Assembly: GCA_037043015.1 (NCBI GenBank) | Contig: CM073321.1 | Coordinates: 15,249,001-15,313,000 of the forward strand | DNA length: 64,000 nt | From: Bryum argenteum | Taxonomy: Eukaryota; Streptophyta; Bryopsida; Bryales; Bryaceae | Reading direction: 5' to 3' | Shown here: in pieces, positions 9,366 through 47,856 of the stretch | Layout of the letters: each line of letters begins with the position of its first letter | Position numbering within the stretch: position 1 is the stretch's first letter | Program-made: the position numbers and the translations under genes | The notes under the pieces: model-generated | What the model was told of the DNA's origin: nothing | What the model saw: the letters and a program-made list of their open reading frames with translations, nothing else | Databases searched by the model: none

Positions 9366-9389
9366 AACCCCGTATTCGTTATATTTGGA
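9366..9389 (+). repeat. Terminal inverted repeat, outer element, transposase end
   Basis: AACCCCGTATTCGTTATATT then TGGAA. It matches the other three ends apart from G/A at position 7 and T/G at position 21. The next 120 bp also match the transposase-side end of the inner element at 35801, read backwards. Confidence 0.9.
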
Positions 9390-9812
9390 ACATTTTTATC
9401 TCCCAAATTGAAACAAGACAATCGATGAAGCCAAAATCAACATTTAGAGGGGTTTCACCGTAGGCATATGTACTTTGAATTTACTAATTTCCATTATATT
9501 TGGAGATGATATGAGACCTCTTGAATCTTAGAAAATATGTTTATCTTAAAATACGTTTCCAACCATACATATATTTGATACTATACATGTCAAGATTAAC
9601 ATACCAACAAAAAATAATTTTCTTTCAATTGATAATAATAATGGGGTCAACTTAAACAATCTTCTTATACAAAATAAATATATTGAATGTGGATAGTAAA
9701 TAGTACAAAAATATAATACTCTATATACTAAATATCAAAGTAATATATATGTCAATACCAAGTTTAAGTACTAAAACACCTACTTCCATAATAAAAACTA
9801 TATACTAGAAGA
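9390..9812. other. Subterminal region, transposase end of outer element
   Basis: AT-rich non-coding DNA between the terminal repeat and the stop codon of the transposase-like gene. It is collinear with 35317-35777 in the inner copy. It probably contains the 3' untranslated region. I see no clear subterminal repeat array. Confidence 0.6.
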
Positions 9813-12695
9813 CTACTCTAGAGAAGATGAAGCAAGCTCCCGCAAAGAAGCCTTGATGATTTCGACCTGCTTCTTGGGTATTGTAATAATAGCGTCTATA
9901 CCTTCAATGCTTTCCTCGTCAGAATGCGTAATTCTTGATTTCCAAGCAGTGAAAATAGCATCTGTAGGTTGCGAGCATACATCTACACCTTTCTCGACAG
10001 TCCAACGAAGCTTTCTATTTGTATCCCAATCTGTGTAATACTTCAGAATTTCTTTGGAGCGTGACATTGGACGGAAGAGTTGGATATCGATCGTATTGGG
10101 TAGGTCTAGGTTTGAATTTGGATCAGACATTGCCCGCCCTAGCCAGAAGGGCCGGCCATCGGTGCCGCATGGACGTAATGCAACAAAATAACCCTTATAG
10201 AGGTCACCTCCAACTCGAAATGAAGGAGCAGGACGATCACGTCTCTGGCCAACAAAATGCTCATCGTTGTCGAAATCTTTGCGCACATTCCCTTCTAAAG
10301 TAAACTCATCTTCCATAGCATGTGGAAGTCGAGTTGACGGCCAGAACCCATGTTGTAACGGTAATGGTTCCTCCAAACTTAACGGGATCCCATGTTGCGA
10401 TGTTGCAAGTACATCCATGGGTATACAAAGAGCATCTTTAACGCCGCTCCAGTAATATGAGAGTGGCTCGTACAATCTCCGCGATTCAATTGACTCACGT
10501 GACAAACGTTCCCAATGATCAACAAAGCCTGAAATCCCTTTCACTACCTCAGGCAAATGGCCCATCTCGTTTGGACGCATAGCATCGGGTTCACCACGTG
10601 GCCATAATGATCTGCCTTCAGAATCCTCCTTCCACAATTTAATACTAGCATTATCACCTCTAGGAAGCCATTCCTTGTCGTGACAAAAAATCTTGTACTT
10701 CATTACGGTACATCCACTTGGATCCATGTAAAACTTGAATTGATGCGCCTTCGTATGCCCCACCAATGCTTCATCGCCGTCTAACATCCACTCTTCAATG
10801 AATTTTTTGAAATCCGGAACCTCTTGAACGAGGTGTGGAATAACAGGAAGTTTCTCAATCCTCATAAAAGATTTCATGAGAAGAGGGATGGTAGGATAAT
10901 CCTCCTTTCGCAACGCCATGCTCCAACGCCCAAATAACGCATCTATGTCATCATGAGTGTGACCGACGAGCATAAAATTTACATATATCTCTCGGAATAC
11001 TCGTTTTGCTACCAAAAGAGACCAGAAACTGAAGACGAATCTATTCTTGTTATCACTTACAGCATTATCCATTTGGACATTTAAAATTGGAGGCAAAAGC
11101 TTTTCTGGAACTAGGATGTCAGGAATCGGGCCTAATGGATCCATACATACCTCTGAACCTCGTAAAAGAGCAGTATACAATGGATGCGATGGGGGCTCTG
11201 TAAAGAATTGTCTAGATAAGGATTTAGGTGCAGCTTCGAGATCCCACAGAAGTTTTGTAAACGAGCCAACCGTATAATTGGCATCATGTGAGTAAACATC
11301 TAGTCCATAATGAGCGTATCGCTGGTCTTTATGACCATGAGCAAGAATTCCCGTAACTGCAAGAGGTAACTTCATGAGTCCGTCTAAGTTCTTCACCTTA
11401 TGAGACAAAGCAGGTGATGCTGTCTTAGAGTGGTCCATCTTGTCATGCATAATGGTCAAAACATCTTGAGGCGACTCCTTCGACCTAAAGCGGTTGAGAT
11501 AGTATAAGTCTCTATGCGCATATGCGGAATCTAAGTGCACATTCAACTTCCTCGACCATATAAGAGATGATTGTGTCCCAGGTAGGGTGAGCTTCATCAG
11601 TGATTGTAACTCATCACACTTGGAGCAACTCGCAAAATTGTCCCCCGATCTTTTGGCATAGTATTCAGGATAGCTCAGGCGGCGAATCTTACGAAGGTTT
11701 GAAGTAGACACCGGCGGGAGCCCACACTCTTGAAGGTGATGATCAAGAAGTGGAATTTGGTCCTTCCACTTAAAACTTGAAGGAAGTACCTTGGCAATGA
11801 CCTTCTCCCCTGATGGAAGGCTCCGAGACTTGTGAGGCATGTGATCGGCATGTCTATCAAGTATTGCCCCTAAGTCGGCAGACGCAACAATCGTATGCCT
11901 CCTAGGCTTTGGCAAGCCCGTGTTCCCGTGCAACTGGGCCTCATGACCATCAACTGCACTCTGAGCGTTTCGATAAAACGTACCGTTGCTCACGCCCATG
12001 ATCTTCATCCACGCAGTCCGACAAACATCAATACCCTCTAAAGTGACTACATTTCGCCTTTCAGCATTTCTGTGGAACTGCCTATGGACATCAAGTTTGA
12101 TATGGTTCTTAAACTGCACAGTTGTCTTGTCGTACATGCGACACCTGAGAACCTTAATCTTCTCCCTTGGGTATAGTTGAACACAGTTGTACCTACAGCA
12201 CGTATTACATGCGACCGCATTGATTGACTCCACTGTCATCAGAAACTGTGCTTTGCGCGAAACTGGGGTAGATTCATTCCTCAAGGAATTATCATAGGAT
12301 CGAGTTCGAGATGACCCCTGGCGTCGACTACGTTCACGGACCCATCGGTTGTAAACATCTTGCTGACTATGGTCAAAAAGAGTAACACCGTCTAGGAGGA
12401 TTTGTTGGATGGGCCACGATTTAAAAGAGTATATCCAGTCGTCAGGATCCTCGACCGCAACAAACAAAGTTGAAACTTGAACCACAACTCGAGAATCACC
12501 AAGTAAGCCATTACAATCAGGTACAGCGCCAGATCGTAGGTTTCGAACTAAACCCTCAGTTATTCTGAGTCCTTCGGAATCGAGCAATGCAACGGTCTTC
12601 CCTGTCCAGAGCCGTGGAGGAACAACTTGAGCAGCAAGTAAACCAGGATTCAAAGGTGCATCGGCGAGAGCGTCATCGTCTGAAAAAAAATCCAT
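9813..12695 (-). CDS. Putative transposase, DUF7869-like (intact copy)
   Basis: One open frame of 960 codons. I choose ATG 12695 (MDFFSDDDALADAP) over an in-frame ATG 8 codons upstream because the inner copy begins at the same place and a splice acceptor (TTTTGCAG) sits directly before it. Motifs: a Cys cluster CNTCCRYNC near residue 165, CSKCDEL near 356, MHDKMDHSK near 415-423, LNVQMDNAVSDNKNRFVF near 543 and VGHTHDDIDALF near 577-588. The MDxSK, xxMDNxxxDNKN and GHTHxDID series is typical of proteins labelled DUF7869. Spaced Asp residues in such a pattern suggest an RNase-H-like transposase core (inference). The C-terminal part (YFVALRPCGTDGRPFWLGRA) looks like a small beta-barrel reader domain. 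Position beside a terminal repeat supports the mobilisation role. Confidence 0.75.
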   Translation of the reverse strand: MDFFSDDDALADAPLNPGLLAAQVVPPRLWTGKTVALLDSEGLRITEGLVRNLRSGAVPDCNGLLGDSRVVVQVSTLFVAVEDPDDWIYSFKSWPIQQILLDGVTLFDHSQQDVYNRWVRERSRRQGSSRTRSYDNSLRNESTPVSRKAQFLMTVESINAVACNTCCRYNCVQLYPREKIKVLRCRMYDKTTVQFKNHIKLDVHRQFHRNAERRNVVTLEGIDVCRTAWMKIMGVSNGTFYRNAQSAVDGHEAQLHGNTGLPKPRRHTIVASADLGAILDRHADHMPHKSRSLPSGEKVIAKVLPSSFKWKDQIPLLDHHLQECGLPPVSTSNLRKIRRLSYPEYYAKRSGDNFASCSKCDELQSLMKLTLPGTQSSLIWSRKLNVHLDSAYAHRDLYYLNRFRSKESPQDVLTIMHDKMDHSKTASPALSHKVKNLDGLMKLPLAVTGILAHGHKDQRYAHYGLDVYSHDANYTVGSFTKLLWDLEAAPKSLSRQFFTEPPSHPLYTALLRGSEVCMDPLGPIPDILVPEKLLPPILNVQMDNAVSDNKNRFVFSFWSLLVAKRVFREIYVNFMLVGHTHDDIDALFGRWSMALRKEDYPTIPLLMKSFMRIEKLPVIPHLVQEVPDFKKFIEEWMLDGDEALVGHTKAHQFKFYMDPSGCTVMKYKIFCHDKEWLPRGDNASIKLWKEDSEGRSLWPRGEPDAMRPNEMGHLPEVVKGISGFVDHWERLSRESIESRRLYEPLSYYWSGVKDALCIPMDVLATSQHGIPLSLEEPLPLQHGFWPSTRLPHAMEDEFTLEGNVRKDFDNDEHFVGQRRDRPAPSFRVGGDLYKGYFVALRPCGTDGRPFWLGRAMSDPNSNLDLPNTIDIQLFRPMSRSKEILKYYTDWDTNRKLRWTVEKGVDVCSQPTDAIFTAWKSRITHSDEESIEGIDAIITIPKKQVEIIKASLRELASSSLE

Positions 12696-12777
12696 CCTGC
12701 AAAAGATCATCACAAACACAGATATGAATCAAAACAGTGCCACAACATCAAGACAGTATGAGAAACGAACACATGCA

Positions 12778-13390
12778 GTTTAGCTTGAGTCGAGCTAAAC
12801 AGAAGTAGAAAACACATTCTACAGTTTAGGTCGATGTGAGCTAAACTGATGTATGGGTTCAGTAGATCAGTTTAGCTCCAATCGAGTTGAATGCATGATG
12901 TAGTTTAGCTCGAGTCGAGCTAAACTGTATGGCCTACATGCTCCTGTAGTTAAGCTCGAGTCGAGCTAAACTGTATGGACTTATTCCGACTGCAGTTTAG
13001 CTCGAGTCGAGCTAAACTGTATGGCCTGCACCCTCCTGCAATTTAGCTCAACTCGAGCTAAACTGCAGAATGTGTTCGGTCGAACAGTTTAGCTCGAGTC
13101 GAGCTAAACTGCTCTACTGGATACATACAGCAGTTTAGCTCGACTCAAGCTAAATTGTACGACCTAATGCATCATGCAGTTTAGCTCGAGTCGAGCTATA
13201 CTGTATGGCTGCTTCAACCTGCAGTTTAGCTCGAGTCGAGATAAACTGCAGTACGTCTTCTGACGAAGCGTTTAGCTCAAGTCGATCTAAACTGTTCTAC
13301 TGAATACATATAGCAGTTTAGCTCGACACGAGCTAAACTGCAAGAGGAAGCAGACCATACAGTTTAGCTCGACTCGAGCTAAACTGCATG
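12778..13390. repeat. Cluster of about 14 interrupted palindromes (outer transposase leader intron)
   Basis: Each copy has 12-bp arms CAGTTTAGCTCG and CGAGCTAAACTG around a 3-nt centre, AGT or ACT depending on orientation. Copies are spaced about 40-50 bp apart with unrelated sequence between. Several are imperfect. The cluster sits between the 5' leader (13600-13860) and the coding start at 12695, in what looks like a leader intron. Confidence 0.95.
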
Positions 13391-16969: not shown

Positions 16970-16973
16970 TTGT

Positions 16974-16997
16974 AACCCCATATTCGTTATATTGGGA
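16974..16997 (+). repeat. Terminal inverted repeat, inner element, phosphatase-gene end
   Basis: AACCCCATATTCGTTATATT then GGGAA. The following 270 bp resemble the reverse complement of 47580-47832, the equivalent end of the outer element. Confidence 0.9.
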
Positions 16998-19813: not shown

Positions 19814-20956
19814 TCATTCTACAAAGGCCTTTTGTATTTCATTATACAGATCTAATGATGCACGATCATCATATAACATGGTACGTCCATATTGAAACGA
19901 TGCCCGAAACTTGCTAAGGGGACCGTCAAACTCATGGAGATCTAACAGATACGGCAAAACATCATCTAACAAAACAAAGTCCTCGTGTGCCCTATTGTCC
20001 TTGTGAGACCAAGATGGCAGTAAAAGAACATTTTCCCGCTGATTAAGCACGTGCTTAACCGGACTATCATCTATAATGAGCGTATTAGCCTCTGTATAAA
20101 AACCATTAAAGCCATTAAAGAGATGAGCTGACAAGGTCTTAAGGAAGATAGACTTTTGAATTCCCGGTTCCTTCATGAACAATGGTCGGCTCCCACCAGA
20201 TTTCAAGGGAATCATGTCACAGTCTTCTTGACCAAGAATTCGTAGTGGCCTTATAGGGTTTATAGGACCGAAGAGAAAATCACAAATGGCTTCTGTAGTT
20301 GTTCTCATCATCGAACTCCAAACCGTGATGGTAGCAAACGATGCCACCCGAGAGAAGAAGTCCTTACAGTTGGGCCTCACCCATACAAGCTTCTTCCCCA
20401 CCTCAGTTGGCAACGTGGCCGAGTAAATACGGAAGTCACGATTTCTGTATCCTTTAGCTTCCCAAAATGGGGAACAACTGCAGAGGATACCATTGAGGTC
20501 GAGAACAACATTTAACCAAGTGCTCGAGGACTTCCTTGGAACCCGACCTATGTCTTCTCTAGATATTAAATCATTGACCGATGCCTCGTTGACCTGAAAT
20601 GAAAACGGCGCACCAAGACAAAATTACTGGGGAGCTTTCGTCACTGGTGCGATGAATTCAAGGTCAGCAACATAAAATTCATCGCAACGATAGCATGGGT
20701 GAGAGAAGTGTTTGTGGAACAGAAAATACCTGATTTTCATAATTGCTCTCCTCTAAGTCATCTTGGACACCCATTGACCCGAGTGACTGCTCAGTGCAAT
20801 CTATCTCATCACGGACAGCAACAACATTCTTAGTATGTGAGACATCATGCATTTTAAGTGAGTCCTCCACCGGTGGTACCCGCTCATGGCGATAACATTC
20901 AAGCGTGACATCATCCATGACTGGAACATCGATTGCTTCGTCATCCAAATTAACAT
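19814..20956 (-). CDS. FCP1/NIF-type HAD phosphatase-like protein (inner copy)
   Basis: Two exons: 20956-20730 (acidic, reads NLDDEAIDVPVMDDV and ends ESNYENQ at a CAG|GT donor) and 20593-19814 (after TTTCAG). HAD landmarks: WLNVVLDLNGILCSC, where the usual DxDGT is DxNG; a VRPNCKDFFSRVASFATITVWSS segment equal to the RPxxxxFL block and motif II; NTLIIDDSPVKH as motif III/IV; and DDVLPYLLDLHEFDGP at the end. These match Ser/Thr phosphatases of the FCP1/SCP type acting on RNA polymerase II tails. The second catalytic Asp (general acid) is Asn, so activity is doubtful. The first exon begins after an acceptor and may be spliced to the methylase-like exon at 21195-22016 via a donor at 21211. Confidence 0.65.
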
Positions 20957-21029: not shown

Positions 21030-21075
21030 AAAAAGGGCAACAGTTTAGCTCGAGTTGAGCTAAACTGCAAAATAG
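21030..21075. repeat. Single palindrome between methylase-like and phosphatase-like exons (inner)
   Basis: One near-perfect CAGTTTAGCTCG/CGAGCTAAACTG palindrome lies in the 239-bp gap. The outer copy has one at the equivalent place (43993-44020). All other palindrome-bearing gaps of this gene are introns, which hints that this gap is an intron too. Confidence 0.9.
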
Positions 21076-21194: not shown

Positions 21195-22016
21195 CTAAGT
21201 TGAAGGAGGACCTAGAGATTCTTCATCTTCGTCACCCACAGGTCGTATCTCAGGCATAGGAGCGGAAGGCGCAGGCGCGGGAGGCTCGGTAGTTGGAGGC
21301 GGCAGGGACATGAGTGGTTGCAGAGAAGTGGGTATAGCCTGTGTAGCAAGAGTGGTTGCCATTGGCCGCACCGAAGTTAATGCGTGGCCGGCAGTTAAAC
21401 TCTCCATCATCTGCATCACCCTGTCATGGCGTTCTTGTTCCCTCTTTTCACGTTCCCGCTGCTCAAGGTTCTGCTGTTTAAGGAGCTCTTCCAACTTTTT
21501 CCGGTGTGCCATCTCCTCCTCAACCTTGCGCTGTAGTGCTACCAATTCAGCACTCTCCTCGGCCTTGAACCTACTTGAGGGTGAGTCCCTCGACAGGGGA
21601 TTACGTTTTGGTTTTACACTCCCCCTGCCGCCTCCTCGCCCAGGAGCGGTACGCGACTCCTGCGGTGTCCGAGGGGTCGTGTCTATCTCCATGTCTTGCT
21701 CTTCGAGTGGAGAGGAGTCATCTCCTCCGGAACCAAGACTATAAGTGCTGCCTTCACCTTGAGGTGGCCTCCCGCTTGACTCAGAACCTTCCTGGTCAGG
21801 GACGTCCTCTTCCAGGGCTTCGTCATCAAGAGACGAAACAGCTTTTTGCTTGCCTTTCAAAAGCATGCCTCCGACCTCCGGAAACTCCCCTTTGTCGACA
21901 AAATAACCGTTGACGGAGAAGTCAGTGGGATCAAGTGTAAGGCCTTCCTCGTACGCTTGGTCGATGTCCTCCCTGTCTTCGGCGTCGAGTATGCAGTAGG
22001 CATCGAGGGACAACAT
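21195..22016 (-). CDS. Exon 4 of ParB/methylase-like gene: end of methylase-like fold and coiled-coil tail
   Basis: It starts after TTTTTTGTAG with MLSLDAYCILDAEDREDIDQ, which completes the AdoMet-motif region begun in exon 3 (beta strand then an acidic LDAED, as in methylases where ExD/D binds the cofactor). Then follow an acidic low-complexity stretch, a Gly/Arg basic patch (GRGGGRGSVKPKRNPLSR), a charged coiled coil (AELVALQRKVEEEMAHRKK to QERHDRVMQMMESL) and a Pro-rich tail ending GDEDEESLGPPST. The coiled coil suggests self-association. The outer copy at 43054-43877 is collinear. Confidence 0.65.
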   Translation of the reverse strand: MLSLDAYCILDAEDREDIDQAYEEGLTLDPTDFSVNGYFVDKGEFPEVGGMLLKGKQKAVSSLDDEALEEDVPDQEGSESSGRPPQGEGSTYSLGSGGDDSSPLEEQDMEIDTTPRTPQESRTAPGRGGGRGSVKPKRNPLSRDSPSSRFKAEESAELVALQRKVEEEMAHRKKLEELLKQQNLEQREREKREQERHDRVMQMMESLTAGHALTSVRPMATTLATQAIPTSLQPLMSLPPPTTEPPAPAPSAPMPEIRPVGDEDEESLGPPST

Positions 22017-22311
22017 CTACAAAAAAACAAAGCAACTTAGGCAACGGACTTGGTCTGAAGCTCGAGCGGTGAAGTTTGCAGAAAAAGGCATGACAGTTTA
22101 GCTCGACTCAAGCTAAACTGTAGACAATTTAGTTCGACTCGACGTAACCCGTATGGCATCCTATTGGCACAAACTGAGTGACAGTTTAGCTCGACTCGAG
22201 CTAAACTGACTAGACAGTTTAGCTCGACTCGAGCTAAACTGTAGAGGCATCCTATGGGCACAAAATGTGTGAAAGTTTAGCTCGAGTCGAGCTAAATTGT
22301 ATGGAGCTTAC
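22017..22311. repeat. Intron 3 of inner ParB/methylase-like gene with five palindromes
   Basis: Borders on minus are GTG|GTAAGC and TTTTGTAG|ATG. Palindromes lie near 22093, 22126 (degenerate), 22183, 22215 and 22272. The outer copy has five in the matching intron (42705-43053). Confidence 0.9.
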
Positions 22312-23664
22312 CACGCTTGCGCAGACTGCTTTGCCACCGGCATAGACAAGCAAAATATTCTCTTGCTCCTGGCAAAATAGCTGGATGACCTGCAAATAGA
22401 AGTCCATCCTCAACTCGATAGTGTACATGTGATACCGAGACTCATTGTACTTCCGCGGCTTGTCGTAGAGAGCGTGCTTTGGAGCGCGGTACTCGGTCTC
22501 GGGCAATCTCGCGAGTCTGATGTCTTTCCTAATCATGAAAAGAAGTCGCACGGGCTCGGAGGATTGCTTTGCTTTCGCTGAGAATCCAACGATTCGTTCG
22601 TGCGGGGACGGATAGTACAAAGACGGTATCAGCGTATAATTTGACCCTGGTAAGTAGGCTGGATTATTTGCGAACGCCTCGACTTGCAGGTAATCATGGT
22701 CATCCCCGCAAATAAATAACCAGCAGGGTACATCCGTGAGAGCTGGCTTGTTCTGGGACGATAAGATCGTCATGAACATTTCGAAGAACGGGTGGTCAGG
22801 AGATGAATCGGAGTTATTAGTACCACTACCCGGAACCAATCTAAAGTCGATGATTCCAACGTTCATCGCCGGTGCAACTTCCGGCCATTTGTTCTCCGGC
22901 CAATCTCTCAGCCTCTGTGGTGTCTTGCGCTCGAAGGATCGGAATATTAGACTACCAATAGGGCCTACGGACTTCTGACGCTTCTCCAGGAACACCTCAA
23001 AGAACCTCTTTGCGTAGGGTGAGAGATCCTCGCAGCTGGTAATCCTGTGCTGGGTTTGTCTTTGATCCGCGTAATACTTGTCCGGAATACCCCATTCCAA
23101 AAGTGCCTTCTTCGAGGCCTTTGTGACGTGGAAGTCCCTCTTGAACTTCTTCCACGCATCCACGTCGAACTCGTTGTTCTTGAAGATTCCGAGTTCGGGT
23201 CGGAACTTGTGGATCTGAAGCTGGGAGGTTGCCTTGCGCTTCAACCGTTCGACGTACTCCTTGACGGAGTAGCAATCTTCAAGAAGGGTGGCTGGTTGCT
23301 TGAGGGTAACCTTTGGGTATTCCAATTTCCGAGACGGACCTGATCTATTGAGCATATTTGCACAGAGTTTCCTATGATCCGACTCTGATAGGTTACCAAG
23401 GTTCTTAAAAAATTCCCTCGTCAGGGTTTGGTCGTTGTCTGGTTTGAACCCTGGTTTGTCGCAGAGTTGCCTCAAGGAGTAGGGGTCGATTAGGGTCCCC
23501 TGAGCGACACTTCCAATCAATTCTGACCAGAGGTCCCAGAGATCATCAGGGAAGGTGATGATCTTAAGCTCATTAGTCAGGGATAAGACCTTGTTCTTTG
23601 CCTCTACTTGGGCCTTGGCAACATCAATCATTGCGAATCTATGTCGAATAGATTCCACGAATTT
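22312..23664 (-). CDS. Exon 3 of ParB/methylase-like gene: degenerate adenine/cytosine-N methylase-like domain
   Basis: A phase-0 exon of 451 codons (KFVESIRHRFAMIDV to GGKAVCASV). The order of segments follows the beta class of DNA N6/N4 methylases. MNVGIIDFRLVPGSG stands where VDLIxxDPPYG is expected, with the catalytic DPPY replaced by DFRL. CWLFICGDDHDYLQ resembles the strand after it. SRYHMYTIELRMDFYLQVIQ resembles the KP-x-x-L-x-x-L-I block. ENILLVYAGGKAVCAS stands for VLDPFAGSGTT. The fold is inferred and catalysis is probably lost. The upstream 270 codons are conserved between copies but not recognised. The gene product would combine this domain with the ParB-like domain of exon 2. 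Confidence 0.6.
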
Positions 23665-23921
23665 CTGCAATGCAACAGAAGAAGAGTGTAAGATTGCGGT
23701 GTATAAGAGGGTGAACACTTTAGCTCGAGTCGAGCTAAAGTGTTTGTGCAACATACAGAAGGCGAGCTATGAGTTGTTTTCTGGTTTGATTCCGAAGTAT
23801 TAGCGACAGTTTAGCTCGAGTCGAGCTAAACTGGCATCAGTTTAGCTCGACTCGAGCTAAACTGGCACGGGAAATTATTGAAAGGGATGAGAGTGTATGT
23901 GCTACTTGAAATAAATCTTAC
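23665..23921. repeat. Intron 2 of inner ParB/methylase-like gene with three palindromes
   Basis: Borders on minus are GAC|GTAAGA and TTGCAG|AAA. Palindromes are near 23717, 23803 and 23837. Confidence 0.9.
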
Positions 23922-25353: not shown

Positions 25354-25424
25354 CTGTGAAAATGCAGTGTTAGTTGGAATTGTATAATCAAACACATGAA
25401 GCTTGTTCAATCGTTCCTAGTAGT

Positions 25425-32345: not shown

Positions 32346-32431
32346 TCACGTGCAATCCTTTCATCATCGTCCCGGAATTTGACCATGTTTTTGTCCAAAC
32401 AGGTTTTGACCTTCTGAAGATTTGTCGCAGG

Positions 32432-35316
32432 ATGGATTTCTCTTCAGAGGATGACACGTTTGTCGATGCACCTATGAATCCTGGTTTACTTGCTACTCAA
32501 GTTGTTCCTCCACGACTGACGGGACGGGAAGGATCACAAAATGCTTGATTCCGATGGACTCAGATTCGCTGAGGGTTTACTTCGAAACCTACGATCTGGT
32601 GCTGTACCTGATTGTAATGGCCTGCTTGGTGATTCTCGAGTTGTGGTGCAAGTTTCAACTCTGTTTGTTGAGGTCGAGGATCCAGACGACTGGATATACT
32701 CCTTTAAGTCGTGGCCCATCCAACAAGTGCTCCTAGACGGAATTAGTCTTTTTGACCATAGTCAGCAAGATGTTTACAACAGATGGGTTCGGGAACGTAG
32801 TCGGCGGCAGGGGTCATCTCGAACTCGATCGTATGATAATTCTTCAAGGAATGAGTCTACTCCAGTCTCGCGCAAAGCACAGTTCCTGATGACAGCGGAG
32901 TCAATCAATGCGGTCGCATGTAATACCTGCTGTAGGCACAACTGTGTTCAACTATACCCAAGGGAGAAGATTAAGGTTCTCAGGTGTCGCATGTACGACA
33001 AGAAAACTGTGCAGTTCAAAAATCACGTCAAACTCGATGTACATAGGGAGTTCCACAGAAATGTTGAAAGGCGAAATGTAGTCACTCTAGAGGGTATTGA
33101 TGTTTGTCAAATTGCGTGGATGAAAATCATGAGCGTGAGCAACGGTACGTTCTATCGCAACGCCCAGAATGCAGCTGATGGTCATGAGGCTCAGTTACAC
33201 GGCAACACGGGCTTGCGAAAGCCTAGGAGGCATACGATTGTTGCGTCTGCAGTCTTAGGGGCAATACTTGATAGACATGTCGATCACATGCCTCACAAGT
33301 CCCGGAGCCTTCCATCAGGGGAGAAGGTCGTTGCCAAGGTACTTCCTTCAAGTTTTAAGTGGAAGGACCAAATTCCTCTTCTTGATCATCACATTGAAGA
33401 GTGTGGACTCCCGCCGGTGTCAATTTCAAACCTTAATAAGATTCGCCGCCTCAGCTATCCAGAATATTATGCCAAGAGATCGGGGGACAATTTCGCGCGT
33501 TGTTCCAAGTGTGATGAGTTACAATCATTGATGAAACTCACTCTTCCCGGGACACAATCATCTCTTATATGGTCGAGGAAGTTGAATGTGCACTTAGATT
33601 CCGCATATGCGCACAGGGACTTATACTATCTCAACCGCTTCAGGTCAAAGGAGTCGCCTCAAGATGTTTTGACCATTATGCATGACAAGATGGACCACTC
33701 TAAGACAACATCACCTGCCTTGTCTCACAAGGTGAAGAACTTAGACGGACTCATGAAGTTACCTCTTGCAGTTACGGGAATTCTTGCTCATGGTCATGTA
33801 GACCAGCGATACGCTCATTTTGGACTAGATGTTTACTCACATGATGCCACTTATACTGTTGGCTCGTTTGAAAAACTTCTTAGGGATCTGGAAGCTGCAC
33901 CTAAATCCTCATCTAGACAGCTCTTTACAGAGCCCTCATCGCATCCACTGTATACTGCTCTTTTACGAGGTTCAGAGGTGTGTATGGATCCATTAGGCCC
34001 GATTCCTGACACCCTAGTTCCTGCAAAGCCTTTGCCTCCAATTTTGAATGTCCAAATGGATAATGCTGTGAGTGATAACAAAAATAGATTCGTCTTCAGT
34101 TTTTGGTCTCTTTTGGTAGCAAAACGAGTATTCCGAGAGATATATGTAAATTTTATGCTCGTCGGTCACACGCATGATGACGTAGATGCGTTATTTGGGC
34201 GTTGGAGCATGGCCTTGCGAAAGGAGGATTATCCTACCATTCCTCTTCTCATGAAATCATTTATGAGGATTGAGAAAATACCTGTTATTCCACACCTTGT
34301 TCAAGAGGTTCCGGACTTCAAGAAATTTATCGAAGAGTGGATGTTAGTCGGCGATGAAGCATTGGTGGGGCATACGAAAGCGCATCAATTTAAGTTTTAC
34401 ATGGATCCAAGTGGATGCCCCGTAATGAAGTACAAGATTTTCTGTTACGACGAGGAATGGCTTCCTAGAGGTGATCATGCTGGTATTAAATTGTGGAAGG
34501 AGGATTCTGAAGGCAGATCATTATGGCCACGTGGTGACCCGGATGCAATGCGTCCAAATGAGATGCGTCATTTGCCTGAGGTGGTGAAAGGGATTCCTGG
34601 CTTTGTCGATCATTGGGAACGATTATCACGTGAGTCAATTGAATCGCGGAGATTGTACGAGCCTCTCTCATATTACTGGAGCGGCGTTAAAGATGCCCTT
34701 TGTATACCCATGGATGTACTTGCATCGTCGCAAAATGGGATTCCGTCAAGTTCGGAGGAACCATTACCGTTACAACATGGTTTTTGGCCGTTAACTCGAC
34801 TTGCACATGCTATGGAAGATGAGTTTACTTTAGAAGGGAATGTGCGCGAAGAGTACCAAGACGATGATCATTTTGTTGGCCAGAGACGTGATCGTCCTGC
34901 TCCTTCATTTCGAGTTGGGCGTAACCTTTATAAGGGTTATTTTGTTGCACTACGTCCATGCGGCACCGATGGCCGGCCCTTCTGGCTCGGGCGAGCAATG
35001 TCTGATCCAAATTCCAACCCAGACTTACCCAATACAGTCGACATCCAGTTCTTCCGTCCAATGTCACGCTCCAAAGAAATCCTGAAGTATTACACAGATT
35101 GAGATAAAAATAGAAAGCTTTGTTGGACTGTTGAGAAAGGTGTAGATGTATCTTCGCAACCTATAGATGCTATTTTCACTGCTTGGAAATCAAGAATTAC
35201 GCATTCTAACGAAGAAAGCAGTGAAGGTATAGATGCTATTATTACTATACCCAAGAAGCAGGTTGAAATCATCAAGGCATCTTTGCGGGAGCTTGCTTCA
35301 TCTTTGCTGGAGTAGT
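32432..35316 (+). pseudogene. Putative transposase, DUF7869-like (inner copy, broken)
   Basis: It starts at ATG 32432 after a TCGCAG acceptor (MDFSSEDDTFVDAPMNPG) and matches the outer protein through most of its length, including MHDKMDHSK, VQMDNAVSDNKN and VGHTHDDVDALF. A net +1 change at about 32520-32540 shifts the frame; an internal ATG at 32541 reopens an 853-codon frame. At 35100-35102 TGA replaces the TGG (Trp) of the outer copy in YYTDW. The last 70 codons remain readable to TAG at 35314. It is unlikely to make full-length protein. Confidence 0.8.
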
Positions 35317-35777: not shown

Positions 35778-35801
35778 TCCAAATATAACGAATATGGGGT
35801 T
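35778..35801 (-). repeat. Terminal inverted repeat, inner element, transposase end
   Basis: Read on minus from 35801: AACCCCATATTCGTTATATT then TGGAA. It is followed by the same subterminal sequence as at 9390 (for example GGGGTTTCACCGTAGGC). Confidence 0.9.
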
Positions 35802-36800
35802 TTGTCATCGCTTTTCCCTTAAACGCCCAAGCAAGCCCGAGGGGCATGATTCCAACGAAATCTTCCCTGTAGCTCTCATTGTACTCAACATTTCACTTAT
35901 ATTTTGATGTCAAACTGGTCACCTTCTTCTGATGCATTCAAAAAGTGAAATTTCACAATTCAAATCACAATTTGAATGAATGATTTTGTGCTTTGTAAGT
36001 ATTGTGGTAGGTAGGTTGGGGTTGTATTTAACCTTGTAGGAGGTTGCAAGCTCATCATTGATTGGTCTATTCATGATGCCCAAGTTCAAAAAGTGCACTA
36101 TTCATGATGCCCAAGTCCAAAAGATGCTGTGATCCAATTCTGGGCTGCCCGTTTTAGACCCACGGGCTTTTAAGGGTTAAATCTTTTATTACTTTACTCA
36201 ATGTGACTGGAGTACAATAAGAATATTTCCGTATTTAAAAACTTTTGCTTTATACTTCCGGTTATATTTATTGATCCTATCAAACTATTTTTTGTACTTG
36301 TAAATATTGCTTCTTGAAGGATAGTACATACTTTAGAAGAAGAAGAAATTAATACATGTAGGATAATATGTGGTACAAATATAGTATATTTGTTGTACTC
36401 TAGTAACCAAAGTATTACACAACAATTAGAAAGAGAAGAGCCTAGTATAGAAGTATTTATACTCTAAAATGGTTTTTCATGCATATCATTTGTAGGGGAT
36501 AAAAACCTAACACCTTAAAACTTTGTTTACAAAGAATATGGTATAATTTACTTTCTAAATTTTGTGTTTTAAAGTAAGAAATTAGAGTACTTCAGGGTAC
36601 TAAACTTACTCACAATTTAGTCAAAAACTTGCATTGAAAACCTAGACATTTACTTAGTCAAAACTTGGCCAAAAACTTGGACCAAAATATTTATAGTCAA
36701 ATCTTTGTCAAAACGTAGTCAAGACTTAGTGAAAAAATTAGTGTGAAAATTAGTTAAAAAGTTATAAAATTTGCAATATTGATTTTTTAAATAAATTTTT
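35802..36800. other. AT-rich non-coding core of outer element, right part
   Basis: It resumes after the second TTGT copy. No gene is seen. The region 36560-36790 has repeated AACTTAGTCAAAA-like words and runs into the CATG hairpin. Confidence 0.6.
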
Positions 36801-36803
36801 TTG

Positions 36804-36905
36804 CCATGCCCATGATCATGTGCATGGGCATGGTCATGTACATGGCCATGTATGTACACATGACCATGTACATGACCATGCCCATGCACATGATCATGGG
36901 CATGG
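36804..36905. repeat. CATG hairpin with 35-bp arms (outer copy)
   Basis: Arms 36804-36838 and 36871-36905 are exact reverse complements and identical in sequence to the inner arms apart from the outermost base. The centre differs slightly (contains GTATGTACAC). Confidence 0.95.
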
Positions 36906-38528: not shown

Positions 38529-39475
38529 CTACAGTTTAGCTCGAGTCGAGCTAAACTGCAACTAGAATAATTTTATAACTCCATACTAGTGCCTACAGTT
38601 TAGCTCGAGTCGAGCTAAACTATAGTTGACACCACCCGTAGTCTTTACAGTTTAGCTCGACTCGAGCTAAACTGTCGAAGTTACACTCAGGGCAACCTAC
38701 AGTTCAGCTCGAGTCGAGCTAAACTGCTGCCAAAATTAATAACAAATTTTGAAAATATAGAGAATCAAAAACATTTCCCAAACATATTCAAAAACTGCAA
38801 AGAAACAGCCACGATTTACTACAGTTTAGCTCGACTCGAGCTAAACTGCTTCTAAAATAATAAGGTTATTCCGAAATAAAACACATACTGACGTCTACAA
38901 GTTAGCTCGACTCGAGCTAAACTGTAAGGGTTGCGTTTAGGTCAGACCTGCAGTTTAGCTTGACTCGAGCTAAACTATAAAGAATGCGTTAAGGTGAAAC
39001 CTGCAGTTTAGCTCGACTCGAGCTAAACTGCTAGTGTGCGTTAGGTTACATGTGCAGTTTAGCTCGACTCGAGCTAAACTGTTAGTGTGCGTTAGATGTG
39101 CAGTTTAGCTCGACTCGAGCTAAACTGTTAGTGTGCGTTAGGTTAGATGTGCAGTTTAGCTCGACTCGAGCTAAACTGTTAGTGTGCGTTAGATGTGCAG
39201 TTTAGCTCGACTCGAGCTAAACTGTTAGTGTGCGTTAGATGTGCAGTTTAGCTCGTCTCGAGCTAAACTGTTAGTGTGCGTTAGGTTAGATGTGCAGTTT
39301 AGCTTGACTCGAGCTAAACTGTCAGTGTGCGTTAGATGTGCAATTTAGCTCGACTCGAGCTAAACCGTTAGTGTGCGTTAGGTTAGATCTGCAGTTTAGC
39401 TCGATTCGAGCTAAACTGTTAGTGTGCGTTAGGTCAGATGTGCAGTTTAGCTCGACTCGAGCTAAACTGTGGCTT
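38529..39475. repeat. About 17 palindromes in intron 1 of the outer gene, part in tandem higher-order units
   Basis: From about 39030 to 39470 the palindrome is part of a tandem unit of 46-52 bp (palindrome plus TTAGTGTGCGTTAG and an optional GTTAGA), repeated about nine times. Copies left of 39000 are spaced irregularly. The inner copy has only eight palindromes in this intron, so the array has expanded locally. Confidence 0.9.
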
Positions 39476-39601
39476 GGATGGCAAGCAGCCTTCTAGCCTC
39501 TAGGGGCAGTTAATATCGACTCACGCTATACTGCAAGTGTACTAGGAAATGAATAACCTAAGCTGTCTTGACCTCAAATAACACATTCTTAAATTTCGCA
39601 G

Positions 39602-41027
39602 TAAGGAGAAGGTACGAGTCCACGAGCTGCTACAACACTTCTTCAAACTAAGGCCGTTGGACGGTGACGAAGACGATGGAGACGACACGAAGCAGTTGGA
39701 CTGTTGGGAATTCAAGGACCCAACAAAAGTACTATCGTGGTCCGCAAGATGGATACCATACACAGCATTCCTCACCCTTGTTGAAACATACGAAGGAGAT
39801 GTACAAGACCCCATAAGCGTTGATATCGACTCCAAGCTCACGGATTTCGACCACGAAACAGAGAAGGAAGTCATAGCTACGTTAACAACTTTCAAGGGGA
39901 AGGACAAGGAGTGCGCTTACAACTACACCGTACTCATCGATATCAAGCAGACTCGTTTTGACTTGGGGCAGTTAGTCGAGAGTTTAGAGGCGTCCAGTTT
40001 CGATGAAATTAAAACCACATTGAAATAGGATATGCTTACAAAAGCATGGGAAACGAAACAGGGGGGAGATCTCAAGGCCAAGCAGCTCGCGATCAAATTG
40101 CGATCCGTAGTCTCCGCTCTAACACACGCTGACATAATGGCGAAGACTCTCCACATGAAAGGAAAAGCTCCAATGGAGGGATCTGGGCTCACTGCAACGG
40201 GGAGCGGCGTACAGAGCAGGGCCCCATCACGAACGCAACGTGCTTCAAGGCCTGCTCCTACAACGACCACTACTTCTAACTCGCCAGTAAAGATGAGAGA
40301 AGCTCCGGTGAAGAAGTTCGCCGAGGCGAAGAAGAAGAAAAGCATGCTCATCCCTGAAGAGGATGCTTTTACGGCCATGAATGAGGTCATAGATTCCATT
40401 CCGAAGAATGTGAATACCATTGAGGAAATCGAGAATGTGAACCTCATTTATCAGAAGTTCTTCACAGACTGTCAGGATTGTTTCGTCCTTACTAAACCTG
40501 ACACGAAGATGGAGATCGCCACAATGAGGATGATCGAGTCCCCTCCGCAATGGACAATCCGGGCGTTCGAGAAGAAGGGCAAGACGGACCTGATGAATTT
40601 TCCCATCAATATGCCTGACAGGTCGCAGAAGCAAACGCTCTGTGTAATGCCAAAATTGGATGTGAAGCCGAACGGCCTGGAAGATATGCAGGACTGCGAG
40701 TTTTGGATAATCAACGGCGAACACAGTGTTGCAGCCTCAAAGCAAATGCTGGAGTCTAAAGTCCCAGAAACAATTCGCAAGGACTTTCGGGTGTGGTCTG
40801 CTTTCGTAGTCTGGACAAAGGATGAAGCCAAGCTGCGCAAAATATCGGCGTTCTATAACAGAGTAAACCATTTCACTCCGTTCAAGCCGACATGGGCATC
40901 GAACATCCTTGCCGCCCGCACGGTGTAGATAAACTACGGCCGCCCGGCAAACAGACATGCAGCAGCTGGAGTTGCGGACAAACGAGTGTAGACAAAGCGA
41001 GTTGCGACACAATTCGCAAATTTTGAC
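39602..41027 (+). pseudogene. Exon 2 of ParB/methylase-like gene (outer copy, three stops)
   Basis: Collinear with the inner exon (1426 versus 1432 nt), from KEKVRVHELLQHFFK to NFD at a GAC|GTAAGT donor. The ParB-like box reads FWIINGEHSVAASKQM. TAG stops: 40026-40028 (inner has CAG), 40926-40928 (inner has TGG) and 40989-40991 (inner has CAG). The stops differ in position from those of the inner copy, so the ancestor was open throughout. Confidence 0.65.
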
Positions 41028-41089: not shown

Positions 41090-41220
41090 GCAGTTCAGCT
41101 CAAGTCGAGCTAAACAGTCATTGCAGTTTAGCTCCACTCGAGCTAAACTACACTGACAGTTTAGCTCGACTCGAGCTAAACTGCAGTTACAGTTTAGCTC
41201 GACTCGAGCTAGACTGTCGC
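41090..41220. repeat. Four palindromes in intron 2 of the outer gene
   Basis: Copies near 41092, 41125, 41157 and 41189, about 32 bp apart. Confidence 0.9.
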
Positions 41221-41354: not shown

Positions 41355-42704
41355 TAGATTTGTTGAATCTATTCGCCAAAGGTTCGCCATAATTGATGTT
41401 ACCAAGGCCCAGGTAGAGGTGAAGAACAAGGTTTTAGCCCTCACGAATGAGCTAAAGATCATCACCTTTCCTGATGATCTCTGGTATCTATGGGAAGAGT
41501 TGATTGGAAGTGTTGCGCAGGGGACCCTTATTGACCCCTACTCCTTGAGGAAGCTGTGTGATAAACCAGGGTTCAAGCCAGACAACGACCAAACCTTGTC
41601 GAGGGAATTTTTCAAGAACCTCGGTAACCTTTCAGAATCGGACCATAGGAAACTCTGTACACATATGCTCAATAAGTCAGGTCCGTCACGAAAACTGGAA
41701 TACTTGAAGGTTACCCTTAAACAACCAGCAACCCTACTTGAAGATTGCTACTCCGTCAAGGAGTACGTTGAACGGTTGAAGCGGAAGGCGACCGCCCAGC
41801 TTCAGATCCATATGATCCGACCAGAACTAGGAATCTTCAAGAACAACGAGTTTGACGTAGATGCCTGGAAGAAGTTTAAGAAGGAATACCACGTCACCAA
41901 GGCCTCGAAGCGCGCACTGTTGGAATGGAGTATCCCGGATAAATATTATGCGGATCAAAGGCAAACCCAGCACATGAATACCAGGTGCGAGGACCTCTCT
42001 CCCTACGCAAAGAGGTTCTTCGAGGTGTTCCTAGAGAAGCGCAAGAAGTTCATAGGCCCTATTGGTAGTCTAATATTTTGTACCTTCCAGCGCAAAACAC
42101 CACAGAGGCTTGAAGATTGGCATGAGAACACATGGCCAAAAGTTGCTCCAGAGATGAACCTCGGAATTATCGACTTTAGATTGGTTCCAGGTAGTGGTGG
42201 TACCTCCGATTCCTCGCCTGACACCCATTCTTCGAAATGTTCATGGCCATCTTATCATCGCAAAACAAGCCAGCTCTCACGGATGTACCATGCTGGTTAT
42301 TTATTTGCGGGGATGACAGTGATTACGCGCAAGTTGAGGCGTTTGCGAGAAATCCTGCCTACTTCTCAGGTTCGAATTACAAGCTGATCCCATCAATGTA
42401 CTTCCCATCTCCGCACGAACGAATCACTGGATTCAACGCGGAAGCGAAGCAAGCTTCGAAGCCCGTGCGTCTTCTCTTTATGATCAGGGAGAACGTGAAA
42501 CTCGCGGGGATGCCACAGACCGAGTATCGCACTCCAAAGCATGCGCTTCATGAAAAGCCGCGGAAGTACAAGGAGTCTCGGTATCACATGTACCCGATCG
42601 AGTTGAGGATGGACTCTTATTTACAGATCATCAAGCTTTTTTGACAGGAGCAGGAGAACATTTTTCTTGTCTATGCCGGCGGAAAATCAGTTTGCGCAAG
42701 CGTG
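41355..42704 (+). pseudogene. Exon 3 of ParB/methylase-like gene (outer copy)
   Basis: It matches the inner exon (FVESIRQRFAIIDVTKAQVE to GGKSVCASV). Breaks: a 1-nt deletion near 42218 (GACCACCC became GACACCC) and a TGA at 42642 where the inner copy has TGC. The DFRLVPGSG and VYAGGKS segments are kept. The acceptor AG of the inner copy corresponds to TT here, so splicing may also fail. The donor GTG|GTAAGT is intact. Confidence 0.65.
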
Positions 42705-43053: not shown

Positions 43054-43877
43054 ATGTTGTCCCTCGATGCCTACTCCATATTCGACGCCAAAGACAAGGA
43101 GGACATCGACCAGGCGTACGAGGAAGGCCTAACACTTGATCTAACTGACTTCTCCGTAAACGGTTATTTCGTCGACAAAGACGAGTTTCCAGAGGTCGGA
43201 GGCATGCTCTTAAAGGGCAAGCGCAAAGCTGTAGCGTCCTTAGATGACGAGGCCCTAGACAATGATGCCGACCTCCCCGACCACGAGGATTTTGGGTCAA
43301 GCGGAAGAATACTTCAAGATGAAGGCAACACTTACAGCCTTGGTTCCGTAGGAGATGACTCCGCTCCAGGCGAAGAACAAGACATGGAGTTGGACACGAC
43401 CCCTCGGACACCGCAGGAGTCGCGTACCGCTCCTGGGCGAGGAGGCGGGAGGGGGAGTGCAAAACGGAAACGTAATCCCCTGTCGAGGGAATCACCCTCA
43501 AGTAGGTTCAAGGCCGAGGAGAGTGCCGAATTGGCAGCACTTCAGCGCAAGATTGAGGAGGAGACGGCACACCGGAGGAAATTGGAAGAGCTCCTTGCAC
43601 AGCAGCAAATTAAGCAGCGGGAACGCGAAAAGAGGGAACAGGAACGCCATGACAGGATGATGGAGATGATGGAGAGTTTTACTGCCGGCCACGCATTAAC
43701 TTCGGTGAAGACAAGGGCACCACTGCTACCCATGCTGATCCTACTTCCCTGCAACCACTCCCGTCCCTGCCGCCTCCAACTACCGAGACTCCCGCGACTA
43801 CGCCTTCCTCTCCTATGCCTGAAATACGACCTGTGGGGGACGCGGAAGAAGAAACTACAGGTCCTCCTTCAACTTAG
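43054..43877 (+). pseudogene. Exon 4 of ParB/methylase-like gene (outer copy)
   Basis: It begins MLSLDAYSIFDAKDKEDIDQ after TTTTTGTAG and keeps the acidic, Gly/Arg and coiled-coil parts. An indel near 43705-43730 shifts the frame; the original frame resumes as SPMPEIRPVGDAEEETTG to TAG at 43875. A possible donor (CTACAG|GTCCTC) near the end parallels one in the inner copy. Confidence 0.6.
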
Positions 43878-43989
43878 AATCTGGATCGAGTGTATAGTAT
43901 TTAAGCTGTAAATGCCGGAAAACACATGTACATGTGAAATTTTGTATCAAACAGACATTTTTTTGTAGTTAATACAGGCTTTTACTATT

Positions 43990-44022
43990 TTGCAGTTTAG
44001 CTCGACTCGAGCTAAACTGTTG
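43990..44022. repeat. Single palindrome before the outer phosphatase-like exon
   Basis: A perfect copy with an ACT centre, at the place equivalent to 21030-21075. Confidence 0.9.
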
Positions 44023-44103: not shown

Positions 44104-46546
44104 ATGTTAATTTGGATGACGAAGCAATCGATGTTCCAGTCATGGATGATGTCACGCTTGAATGTTATCGCCATGAGCGGGTTCCACCGGTGGAGGACCC
44201 ACTTAAAATGCATGATGTCTCACATACTGAGAATGTTGTTGCTGTCCGTGATGAGATAGATTGCACTGAGCAGTCACTCGGGTCAATGGGTATCCAAGTT
44301 GACTTAGAGGAGAGCAATTATGATAATCAGGTATTTTCAGTTCACACTCTCTGTTCTCATCCATGCCGTCCTTGCTATGTATTACATAATTCTGACCTTG
44401 AATTCATCGCACCAGTGACGAAAGCTCATCAGTAATTTTGTCGTGGTGTGCCGTTTTCATTTCAGGTCAACGAAGCATCGGTCAATGATTTAATTCCTAG
44501 GGAAGGCATAGGTCGGGTTCCAGGGAAAACCTCCGGTACTTGGTTAAATATTGTTCTGGACCTCAATGGTATCCTCTGCAGTTGTTCCCCATTTTGGGAA
44601 GCTAAAGGATACAGAAATCGTGACTTCCGTATTCACTCGGCCACGTTGCCAACCGAGGTGGGGAAGAAGCTTGTATGGGTGAGGCCCAACTGTAAGGACT
44701 TCCTCTCTCGGGTGGCATCGTTTGCTACCATCACGGTTGTCGCGCACCTCTCCTTGAGGAGTGCCCGCAACACCAAGGGCCCAAGGGGGACACCGGAGTG
44801 ACGCCCGGGCCTTGGGGTGCCAAGGTGAAGGGAACCTAAGTGGGCCTAGTGTGGGAGAGGACCCCGGGCGTTGGAGACGCCTCTCACCCACGGAGACTAG
44901 GAGCCACGACGGAATGGACATGAGATTATGGAAGCTCATGTTGCCACGATTCCGGGATGCTAAGGAGCACCTCATTTGGAGGTGTGAGCTAAAAGTTATG
45001 GGAGTTGGAAGATTGTGGGACTAAAGGGAGTGCTGTCCAGGGACAGTGCTGGACTGGGAAGCTGGCCCGGGACTCCCGAATCTTCAGAGGGGCATAACTC
45101 CCTCAATACTTGTCGGAATGAGGCAAGTAAGGTGTCTATCGGCATCTACTTGACGAGTAGATGTCGATAGAGTGGTCGCTCGTCGCGTTTGGATGCGGGA
45201 CGAGGTAGATACGAGCCCTGGAAGGTTCGGGAAGTCTCCCGGGGCCTTCCAGCGGCTAAGGCATTGGGAGATTGGGTGGTCTTCCAAAACTAAGAGGTGT
45301 GAGGGTCCAGCCCTTCACCTAGGACCAGGGGGCTGCCGAATCCCACAGAGTATACTATGGGGAGGACTGGTCTCCCTCCCCACTCCCATGGTGCCTTGGT
45401 GGTGACCAAGGTGGGAGTCCCGAGTGGTGTGGCTAGTATTGGGGCCTCACCATGGGGACTCCCAAGCCAAGGTGAGTCCCAATGGGTGGAGCTAGTGTTG
45501 GGGCTCCACCATGGGGACTCAAAGTGCAAAATGAGGCACGGTGGGTGGAGCTAGTGTTGGGGCTTCACCACGGTGGCTCATAAGGACAAGGTGAGTCCCG
45601 GTGGGGGAGCTAGTGTTGGGGCTTCACCACGGGGACTCATATAGGCAAAATGAGGACCATGAGTGCTACCGATGTGGGGTGGTGTCTCACCGCCGGCGTT
45701 GTGATTACTTGGTGGCCTTGGGGTCACCATGGTGGTCATGGGCGGTGGTGAGGAGACACCACCAAGTGCGGTTAGGCCGCGTGGTATGGGAGTGCCACCA
45801 AGTTGGGCCTTGGACATAAGTGGAAGTCCGCACCTAACCATTGGCTACCTACGAAGGGGTTGAGTCCCGGTTGCATGAGTAGGAGGGATTGATAACCAAG
45901 CGGTGAGCTTGGTGGTTGGTATGGAGAGCTAACTTTGTGCATGTGGGGGATGTGCAGAGTTAGCGCTCGTGACACTTGCTAGAGTTGGGAAAAAGTTGGT
46001 GTAAGCTAAGGTGAGCTAGCAAGGGTTGCGACAACGGTTTGGAGTTCGATGATGAGAACGACCACAGAAGCCATTTGTGATTTTCTCTTCGGTTCTATAA
46101 ACCCTATAAGGCCACTACGAATTCTTGGTCAAGAAGACTGTGAGATGATTCCCTTGAAATCTGGTGGGAGCCGACCATTGTTCATGAAGGAACCGGGAAC
46201 TCAAAAGTCTATCTTCCATAAGACCTTGTCAGCTCATCTCTTCAATGGCTTTAATGGTTTTTATACAGAGGCTAATACGCTCATTGTAGATGATAGTCCG
46301 GTTAAGCACGTGCTTAATCAGCGGGAAAATGTTCTTTTACTGCCATCTTAGTCTCACAAGGACAATAGGGCACACGAGGATTCTATTTTGTTAGATGAGG
46401 TTTTGCCGTATTTGTTAGAGCTCCATGAGTTTGACGGTCCCCTTAGCATGTTTCGGGCCTCGTTTCAATTTGGACGTGCCATGTTATATGATGATCGTGC
46501 ATCATTAGATCTATATAATGAAATACAAAATGCCTTAATAGAATGA
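44104..46546 (+). pseudogene. FCP1/HAD phosphatase-like gene (outer copy, split by a solo LTR)
   Basis: Exon 44104-44330 has the same length as the inner one (227 nt). The second exon starts at 44466 with VNEASVNDLIPREG and WLNIVLDLNGILCSC. It is interrupted at FATITV by the solo LTR 44738-46033, then resumes WSSMMRTTTEAICDFLFG. A TAG at 46349-46351 replaces TGG of the inner copy (LLPSW). It ends at TGA 46544. The DxN change in the first HAD motif is shared with the inner copy, so it is ancestral in this family. Confidence 0.7.
44738..46033. mobile_element. Solo LTR (1296 bp) with 5-bp target duplication
   Basis: It starts TGTCGCGCACC and ends GGTTGCGACA (TG...CA with inverted TGTCGC/GCGACA), flanked by ACGGT at 44733-44737 and 46034-46038. 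The inner copy shows the empty site (ATCACGGTTTGGAG). It is GC-rich and contains several repeats of GGAGCTAGTGTTGGGGC near 45420-45650. It is unrelated to the other LTR families in the window. Its many open frames are spurious. Confidence 0.9.
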
Positions 46547-47560: not shown

Positions 47561-47832
47561 TAGTTACATCTAGTAGCTACAGAAGTAATTATGTACAGAT
47601 TTGATAATCATCACTCTTGTATGACATATTTTGTGAATCATGATTGATATTTACAAGCGAATAAATGGAATATTATTTTATTCCCATTCTTTTTCTATGG
47701 TTCGGGCTGAGCGATGTCTCTGTTTGCATATACTCATATCTTGTTTGATGCAAGATCTAGTACTTTATGCTTAACATTGATCAATATTTTAGATGATTCT
47801 CTACTCTTAAATCTCCCAAAGTCATGCATATT
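47561..47832. other. Subterminal region, phosphatase-gene end of outer element
   Basis: AT-rich non-coding DNA, collinear in reverse with 16998-17269. Confidence 0.7.
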
Positions 47833-47856
47833 TCCCAATATAACGAATATGGGGTT
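47833..47856 (-). repeat. Terminal inverted repeat, outer element, phosphatase-gene end
   Basis: Read on minus from 47856: AACCCCATATTCGTTATATT then GGGAA, followed by the ATATGCATGACTTTGGGAG subterminal sequence also found at 16998. Confidence 0.9.

Follow-up and report, generated by a model that had tools for sequence, protein, structure and literature searches.

Proteins that protect transposons from silencing through sequence-specific binding are so far best documented for Arabidopsis Mutator-like elements (MULEs), to which the VANDALs, with their 9-bp target site duplications (TSDs), belong. Sola elements have a 4-bp TSD and a DDD transposase. PMC5735166 describes how VANC21 binds motif arrays in non-coding DNA, namely the introns of VANB and VANC and the upstream regions of VANA, and relieves silencing. 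According to PMC12477816, the 21.5-kb Ectocarpus element Sola1-1_Ec32 encodes on the opposite strand a 1,104-aa protein combining ParB-like and methyltransferase parts, which is suggested to bind the element's own sequence and to modify it, and a table in a review lists Sola1 for Physcomitrella (PMC9033089). Here we describe a 64,000-bp stretch of the Bryum argenteum genome (contig CM073321.1, here C1; C1:15249001-15313000, hereafter the window) that holds a nested pair of large DNA transposons with terminal inverted repeats (TIRs), whose non-coding DNA carries arrays of a 27-bp palindrome, CAGTTTAGCTCGA-N-TCGAGCTAAACTG. The initial annotation of the window had reported the pair and overlooked the arrays. 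We propose, with moderate confidence, that the palindromes are docking sites of an element-encoded dimer with an anti-silencing role like that of VANC in the VANDALs, on a Sola-1-like DDD cut-and-paste element.

The outer copy occupies 9366-47856 (19,659 bp once its insert is removed) and is flanked by GGTA, and the inner copy, at 16974-35801 (18,828 bp), lies inverted within it and is flanked by TTGT. All four TIR ends fall exactly at the coordinates given by the initial annotation, and the 4-bp TSDs can be read directly from the sequence. The TIRs are identical over 20 bp, and over 25 bp with one mismatch; allowing up to three mismatches, there are four TIR-like matches in the window compared with none in 100 shuffles. 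The features of the pair are given below in window positions.

9362..9365, outer TSD GGTA, left, matching 47857-47860
9366..9385, plus strand, outer TIR, transposase-side end, exact end match
9813..12719, minus strand, outer transposase open reading frame (ORF), 968 aa, DUF7869 (PF25273), E 9.7e-45
12776..13386, outer array of 14 palindromes upstream of the transposase
16970..16973, inner TSD TTGT, left, matching 35802-35805; empty site
16974..16993, plus strand, inner TIR, far (B) end
19817..20593, minus strand, inner NIF-phosphatase-like exon (PF03031)
21041..21067, lone palindrome of the inner copy, between gene 2 and the phosphatase exon
21195..22016, minus strand, inner gene 2 exon 3, predicted
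22094..22299, inner palindromes, gene 2 intron 2, 5 sites
22315..23664, minus strand, inner gene 2 exon 2, open, boundaries approximate
23716..23864, inner palindromes, gene 2 intron 1, 3 sites
23922..25406, minus strand, inner exon 1 of gene 2, broken by stop codons, no defined start
25430..25882, inner array of 7 palindromes upstream of gene 2
32010..32347, inner array of 8 palindromes upstream of the transposase
32541..35102, plus strand, inner transposase ORF, 853 aa, DUF7869
35782..35801, minus strand, inner TIR, transposase-side end
35802..35805, inner TSD TTGT, right
38532..39533, outer array of 18 palindromes upstream of gene 2
39582..41027, plus strand, outer exon 1 of gene 2, interrupted, no defined start
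41091..41216, outer palindromes, gene 2 intron 1, 4 sites
41356..42701, plus strand, outer gene 2 exon 2, interrupted, boundaries via alignment to copy L025
42718..42979, outer palindromes, gene 2 intron 2, 5 sites
43054..43911, plus strand, outer predicted exon 3 of gene 2
43993..44019, lone palindrome of the outer copy, between gene 2 and the phosphatase exon
44466..46543, plus strand, outer NIF-phosphatase-like exon, split by further insertion
47837..47856, minus strand, outer TIR, far (B) end
47857..47860, outer TSD GGTA, right

Self-comparison of 9366-47856 shows that the inverted arms of the outer and inner copies are 75-97% complementary along both copies (25 of 38 arm pairs listed, a few of them inside arrays). 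When the outer flanks are joined across the insert with a single TTGT, this virtual empty target aligns contiguously in four of 11 other copies (L015, L009, L017 and L019) at 94-97% identity over ~540 bp, with no gap opening in L009 and L019, one in L015 and two in L017; five of the remaining seven align over part of the region only and two have no match. The TTGT target as found in these four copies is a paralogous empty site, which supports a single genuine insertion of the inner copy with a 4-bp duplication. Together with the exact ends, the paired GGTA and TTGT TSDs and the complementary arms, this bears out the nested pair of the initial annotation, which had itself proposed the self-comparison and the empty-site check. 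Its description of the copies as autonomous-looking does not hold for the pair, neither of which looks autonomous by itself because gene 2, the predicted gene opposite the transposase, is broken in both. The outer copy has an open transposase, interrupted gene 2 exons 1 and 2 and a phosphatase exon split by a further insertion; the inner copy has a transposase open over 853 codons, an interrupted gene 2 exon 1, and open exons 2, 3 and phosphatase exon. A copy of a sister family on contig C2, though, has a long open frame in each module.

The host assembly (258.8 Mb, 25 contigs) contains 141 exact matches to the 20-mer TIR and, with up to two mismatches, 91 transposase-side and 130 far-side ends. 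Pairing with the nearest opposite end within 120 kb, among 100 listed of the 130 far-side ends, joined 66 of the 91 transposase-side ends; 53 of these pairs span 12-30 kb and 30 span 17-21 kb. TSDs were checked in 42 end pairs, made up of 41 of the 53 pairs at 12-30 kb and the outer copy; 10 copies retrieved over their whole length had been selected for clean ends and a length below 20 kb, and 30 other pairs were the first of the remaining 42 in listing order. Identical 4-bp duplications of varying target sequence flank 32 of the 42 pairs (11 of 12 and 21 of 30), and when lengths of 2-10 bp were tried in the 30 pairs, 4 bp alone ever matched. In 12 copies the TSD seemed to start preferentially with A, but inspection of the other 30 pairs by eye, in mixed orientation, gave no sign of this and the idea was set aside. 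Copies L083 and L085 have a right flank in common, probably through segmental duplication. Family movement appears to be fairly recent, as the closest copies are 96-98% identical. The sister family (family 2), with AACCTCG ends (AACCTCGTATTCGTTATATTGGGAA), has 38 exact far-side ends in the host genome, some of which may be solo ends or non-autonomous derivatives. Its C2 copy measures 19.86 kb, is flanked by AGAC and has its modules in the same order as family 1; the termini of the two families read AACCCC or AACCTC. Together these data demonstrate a family of TIR DNA transposons, 18-20 kb long, with 4-bp TSDs and several coding modules, in agreement with the initial annotation, whose suggested genome search and TSD tabulation these counts supply.

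At up to six mismatches, each of 12 copies carries 14-43 palindrome sites, 5-30 of them perfect, compared with none in one shuffle per copy. Genome-wide, perfect palindromes with a C or G centre occur at 1,256 places, and the 84 distinct places listed all lie within element ranges that cover 12% of the stretch concerned. The 342 sites of the 12 copies are all held by five blocks, whose limits, like those of the exons, were fixed after the sites had been seen: 119 precede the transposase, 130 precede gene 2, 27 lie in gene 2 intron 1, 54 in gene 2 intron 2 and 12 before the phosphatase exon. Each block is occupied in all 12 copies, the last (which overlaps the first part of open frame O5) by a single site in each. 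Neither end of any site falls in an inferred exon, and the AT-rich centre and the element ends are free of sites, family 1 having no site within its first 3.3 kb at the transposase-side end or its last 1.9 kb at the far end. Comparing array units (678 pairs), palindromes are 91% identical, a figure inflated by the choice of sites for likeness to the consensus, and spacers 38%. In the sister family the core AGTTTAGCTCGA-N-TCGAGCTAAACT is retained and the outermost base pair relaxed; of 47 odd palindromes in its C2 copy whose arms are 9 bp or longer, 46 are this same motif.

The layout of the arrays is strikingly similar to that of VANDAL21, on a different element type and with a different kind of site. 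According to PMC5735166 and PMC10398659, the VANDAL arrays likewise occupy non-coding parts of the element, both introns and upstream regions, and VANC is the element-encoded recogniser; in Bryum, 342 of 342 sites are outside the inferred exons. However, the VANC motifs are short, share one orientation and sit in fast-evolving tandem repeats, whereas the site described here is a 27-bp palindrome with diverged spacers and a core kept in two families. Pfam scans of the gene 2 exons revealed no family linking gene 2 to VANC.

Counting sites with the same sequence and flanks once, the changes in 281 distinct family-1 sites comprise 253 in a single arm and 22 in both (7 complementary, 15 non-complementary), and those in 105 family-2 sites comprise 123 in a single arm, 20 complementary and 39 non-complementary, where 47.1 double and 15.7 complementary changes are expected. 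Because changes are mostly in a single arm, constraint seems to act on the sequence of the half-site more than on base pairing, pointing to recognition by a dimer, and a hairpin or RNA-structure reading was set aside. The double changes of family 1 speak against this, as only 8.0 would be expected if the arms were independent, 2.7 of them complementary; we attribute the excess to decayed sites, though pairing may add something. A CRISPR-like array, considered for the regular repeats and diverged spacers, was set aside for sites that lie in a plant nuclear transposon and in its introns. C>T or G>A accounts for 41 of 58 changes at CpGs within the site compared with 58 of 125 at other C/G positions, a bias that is suggestive of methylation.

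The transposase-like protein of the outer copy (968 aa) is encoded at one element end, reads toward that end and matches DUF7869 as listed above. Three acidic motifs are conserved, HDKMDHS, MDNAVSDNKN and GHTHDDIDALF here versus DGMDQ, ADNCxxENKN and GHTHEDIDQRF in host DUF7869 loci, in an alignment with four other such loci of which three cover the first motif and two are near-identical. Because these motifs are conserved, the protein fits a DDD transposase and is a putative Sola-1-like RNase-H-fold (DDD) enzyme acting by cut and paste. The 4-bp TSD expected of Sola-1 is present in 32 of 42 pairs and, as AGAC, in the sister copy. Pfam scans of the transposase returned DUF7869 alone and no MULE transposase, the 9-bp TSD of VANDALs and MULEs was not found among the lengths tried in 30 pairs, and neither CACTA ends nor a 3-bp TSD was found, the ends being AACCCC. 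The transposase of L025 compared with five family-1 copies has a ratio of nonsynonymous to synonymous divergence (dN/dS) of 0.06-0.20, its amino-acid identity between the two families is 78%, and conserved Cys/His residues in its N-terminal half make DNA binding possible. A literature search, outside which most subscription-journal papers fell, found no paper on DUF7869. The domain has at least 151 matches in the host genome, with 150 scored out of 1,811 candidates, and many of these genes occupy long open frames; such abundance suggests other large families in the host beyond those described.

On the opposite strand lies the predicted three-exon gene 2 of ~1,200 codons, and then the NIF-phosphatase-like exon (E 1.2e-14 in L025, 2.6e-10 in the inner copy). 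The limits of the gene 2 exons derive from splice and start signals in L025, and ORF clusters open in fewer than four copies were left out. The predicted exons join in phase 0 (GAC/GTAAGT ... TTGCAG/AAA and GTG/GTA ... AG/ATG); the exon 1 donor GTAAGN is found in all of seven copies from both families, the exon 1 acceptor in five of these, and the second donor and second acceptor in six each. For the copies compared above, dN/dS is 0.07-0.12 in exon 1, 0.05-0.12 in exon 2 and 0.09-0.30 in exon 3, ratios that indicate purifying selection on gene 2, and 0.24-0.63 in the phosphatase exon, the top value coming from a 101-codon piece. Between the families, exons 1-3 are 49, 57 and 35% identical in amino acids, with synonymous divergence (dS) saturated for exons 1 and 2. 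Between the same family-1 copies dS is 0.66-1.21 in gene 2 exons 1-2, against 0.16-0.37 for the transposase and 0.08-0.18 for the phosphatase exon, that of exon 1 being 2.3-5.1 times that of the transposase. Because dS is higher in gene 2 exons 1-2 than in the transposase and phosphatase exon, the element looks mosaic, either through mosaic evolution or through exchange of its core.

This arrangement bears on the statement of the initial annotation that it knew of no named family with such content, which stands in part, as a similar two-strand layout is described for the Ectocarpus element. According to PMC12477816, Sola1-1_Ec32 is likewise a giant DNA transposon (21.5 kb compared with 18-20 kb here) with an accessory gene of ~1,100 codons opposite the transposase. 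Unlike it, the Bryum element has a NIF-phosphatase-like exon and no visible methyltransferase motif, and the string 'palindrom' is absent from the main text of that paper. In literature searches on Sola and ParB, algal transposons and ParB, and palindromic and ParB, which left most subscription-journal papers outside, we recognised none describing such arrays.

In the mechanism that we propose, a Sola-1-like DDD transposase would mobilise the element through cut-and-paste transposition, and an element-encoded homodimer, most likely the gene 2 product, would bind the palindromes, their dyad-symmetric 27 bp offering 13-bp half-sites to a dimer. The bound protein would coat promoter and intronic DNA and so mark the element's own chromatin, and this marking would keep the element's genes expressible despite host DNA methylation, as in the VANC/VANDAL system. 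Several observations weigh against the proposal or its parts. The binder could be a host factor. Gene 2 has no profile match above any curated cut-off; below threshold are Retrotran_gag_2 (E 0.0024, outer exon 2 ORF), weak matches at E 0.01 in exon 3 and phrog_34684, whose function is not stated (E 0.011, one of four exon 1 members). Its best match in the PDB has an E of 0.39, the phage and plasmid search gave E 0.5 or worse, and viral contigs and solved structures returned no meaningful relatives. In raw stop-to-stop frames, 21 of the 342 sites lie inside open frames, in parts that we read as the non-coding edges of those frames; family 2 has one degenerate site ~0.7 kb from its far end; and 10 of the 42 end pairs have no matching TSD, these being, at a guess, recombinants or mispaired ends.

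A further-reaching proposal, which we hold only tentatively, is a eukaryotic self-labelling system resembling parS, in which a catalytically altered protein derived from a ParB/methyltransferase would load on the palindrome arrays at the element's gene starts and introns, spread and shield the element from silencing. Exon 1 of gene 2 contains a ParB-like INGQHS motif, and methyltransferase-like patterns were noted as well; the profile searches give no support, and the ParB-methyltransferase identity of gene 2 goes no further than motif resemblance. Gene size, strand and this motif recall the ParB-methyltransferase accessory proteins of algal transposons referred to in PMC12477816, whereas here the host is a land plant and there is neither a profile match nor a visible catalytic motif. 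Searches with the gene 2 exons returned no ParB or methyltransferase family, the best of the sub-threshold matches given above pointing elsewhere, and the catalytic motifs of amino-methyltransferases are not visible in gene 2.

Anti-silencing by a gene 2 dimer has a close variant in autoregulation, where the palindromes would be operators through which a dimer encoded by the element controls the promoters of transposase and gene 2, by repression or activation, and limits copy number, with no silencing role. The arrays directly upstream of both divergent genes, and a dyad symmetry that suits a dimeric regulator, make this conceivable, but 14-43 sites per copy and sites in both gene 2 introns in 12 of 12 copies exceed what operators need, and we regard it as rather unlikely. 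The palindrome might instead be recognised by a host transcription factor or insulator protein that the element exploits, and its core is indeed kept in two families despite gene 2 exons just 35-57% identical; however, the 84 places listed of the 1,256 in the genome all being in element ranges makes a host factor quite improbable. Spm/CACTA elements, also large plant DNA transposons with many copies of a short protein-binding motif, suggest a role in synapsis of the ends through transposase binding, as with their subterminal TnpA motifs, and here the transposase Cys/His residues and the degenerate family-2 site near the far end would fit. Yet the CACTA motifs are subterminal and the TSD is 3 bp, whereas family-1 sites avoid the ends and the TSD is 4 bp, and because sites follow gene starts and introns, away from the family-1 ends, we consider such a role very unlikely. 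Passive expansion of neutral minisatellites with no bound protein can draw on the regular 45-46 bp spacing of many units, the closely similar tandem units that form part of the outer gene 2 array and the inflated palindrome identity, but is scarcely credible against the divergence of the spacers, the single pre-phosphatase site kept in every copy and an AT-rich centre with no site at all.

The family is concentrated on C1, a contig of 44 Mb that holds 72 of the 91 transposase-side ends and 81 of the 100 far-side ends listed. C1 has 17% of the genome's bases, yet none of 149 PPR_2 matches (150 of 978 candidates scored; repeats within a gene are not independent); 14 control genomes have no such match. 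PPR proteins are abundant in land plants, and the matches here with none in the controls are indirect support for the plant setting assumed by the initial annotation. C1 itself is probably poor in genes and may be a sex or B chromosome. Remains of a Gypsy-type retroelement at 55453-58957, downstream of the pair, give gag, RNase H and sub-threshold aspartyl protease matches, and a separate repeat with an 18-bp period occurs in both nested copies outside the palindrome arrays (27582-27702 and 36785-36923).

An unrelated transposon type with long palindromic arrays of its own would suggest that the anti-silencing strategy evolved repeatedly. If the parS-like reading is true, the algal ParB-methyltransferase hypothesis would gain its missing DNA target, and the palindrome offers an exact DNA probe for the idea, already in print, that ParB-methyltransferase proteins of transposons bind the element that carries them.

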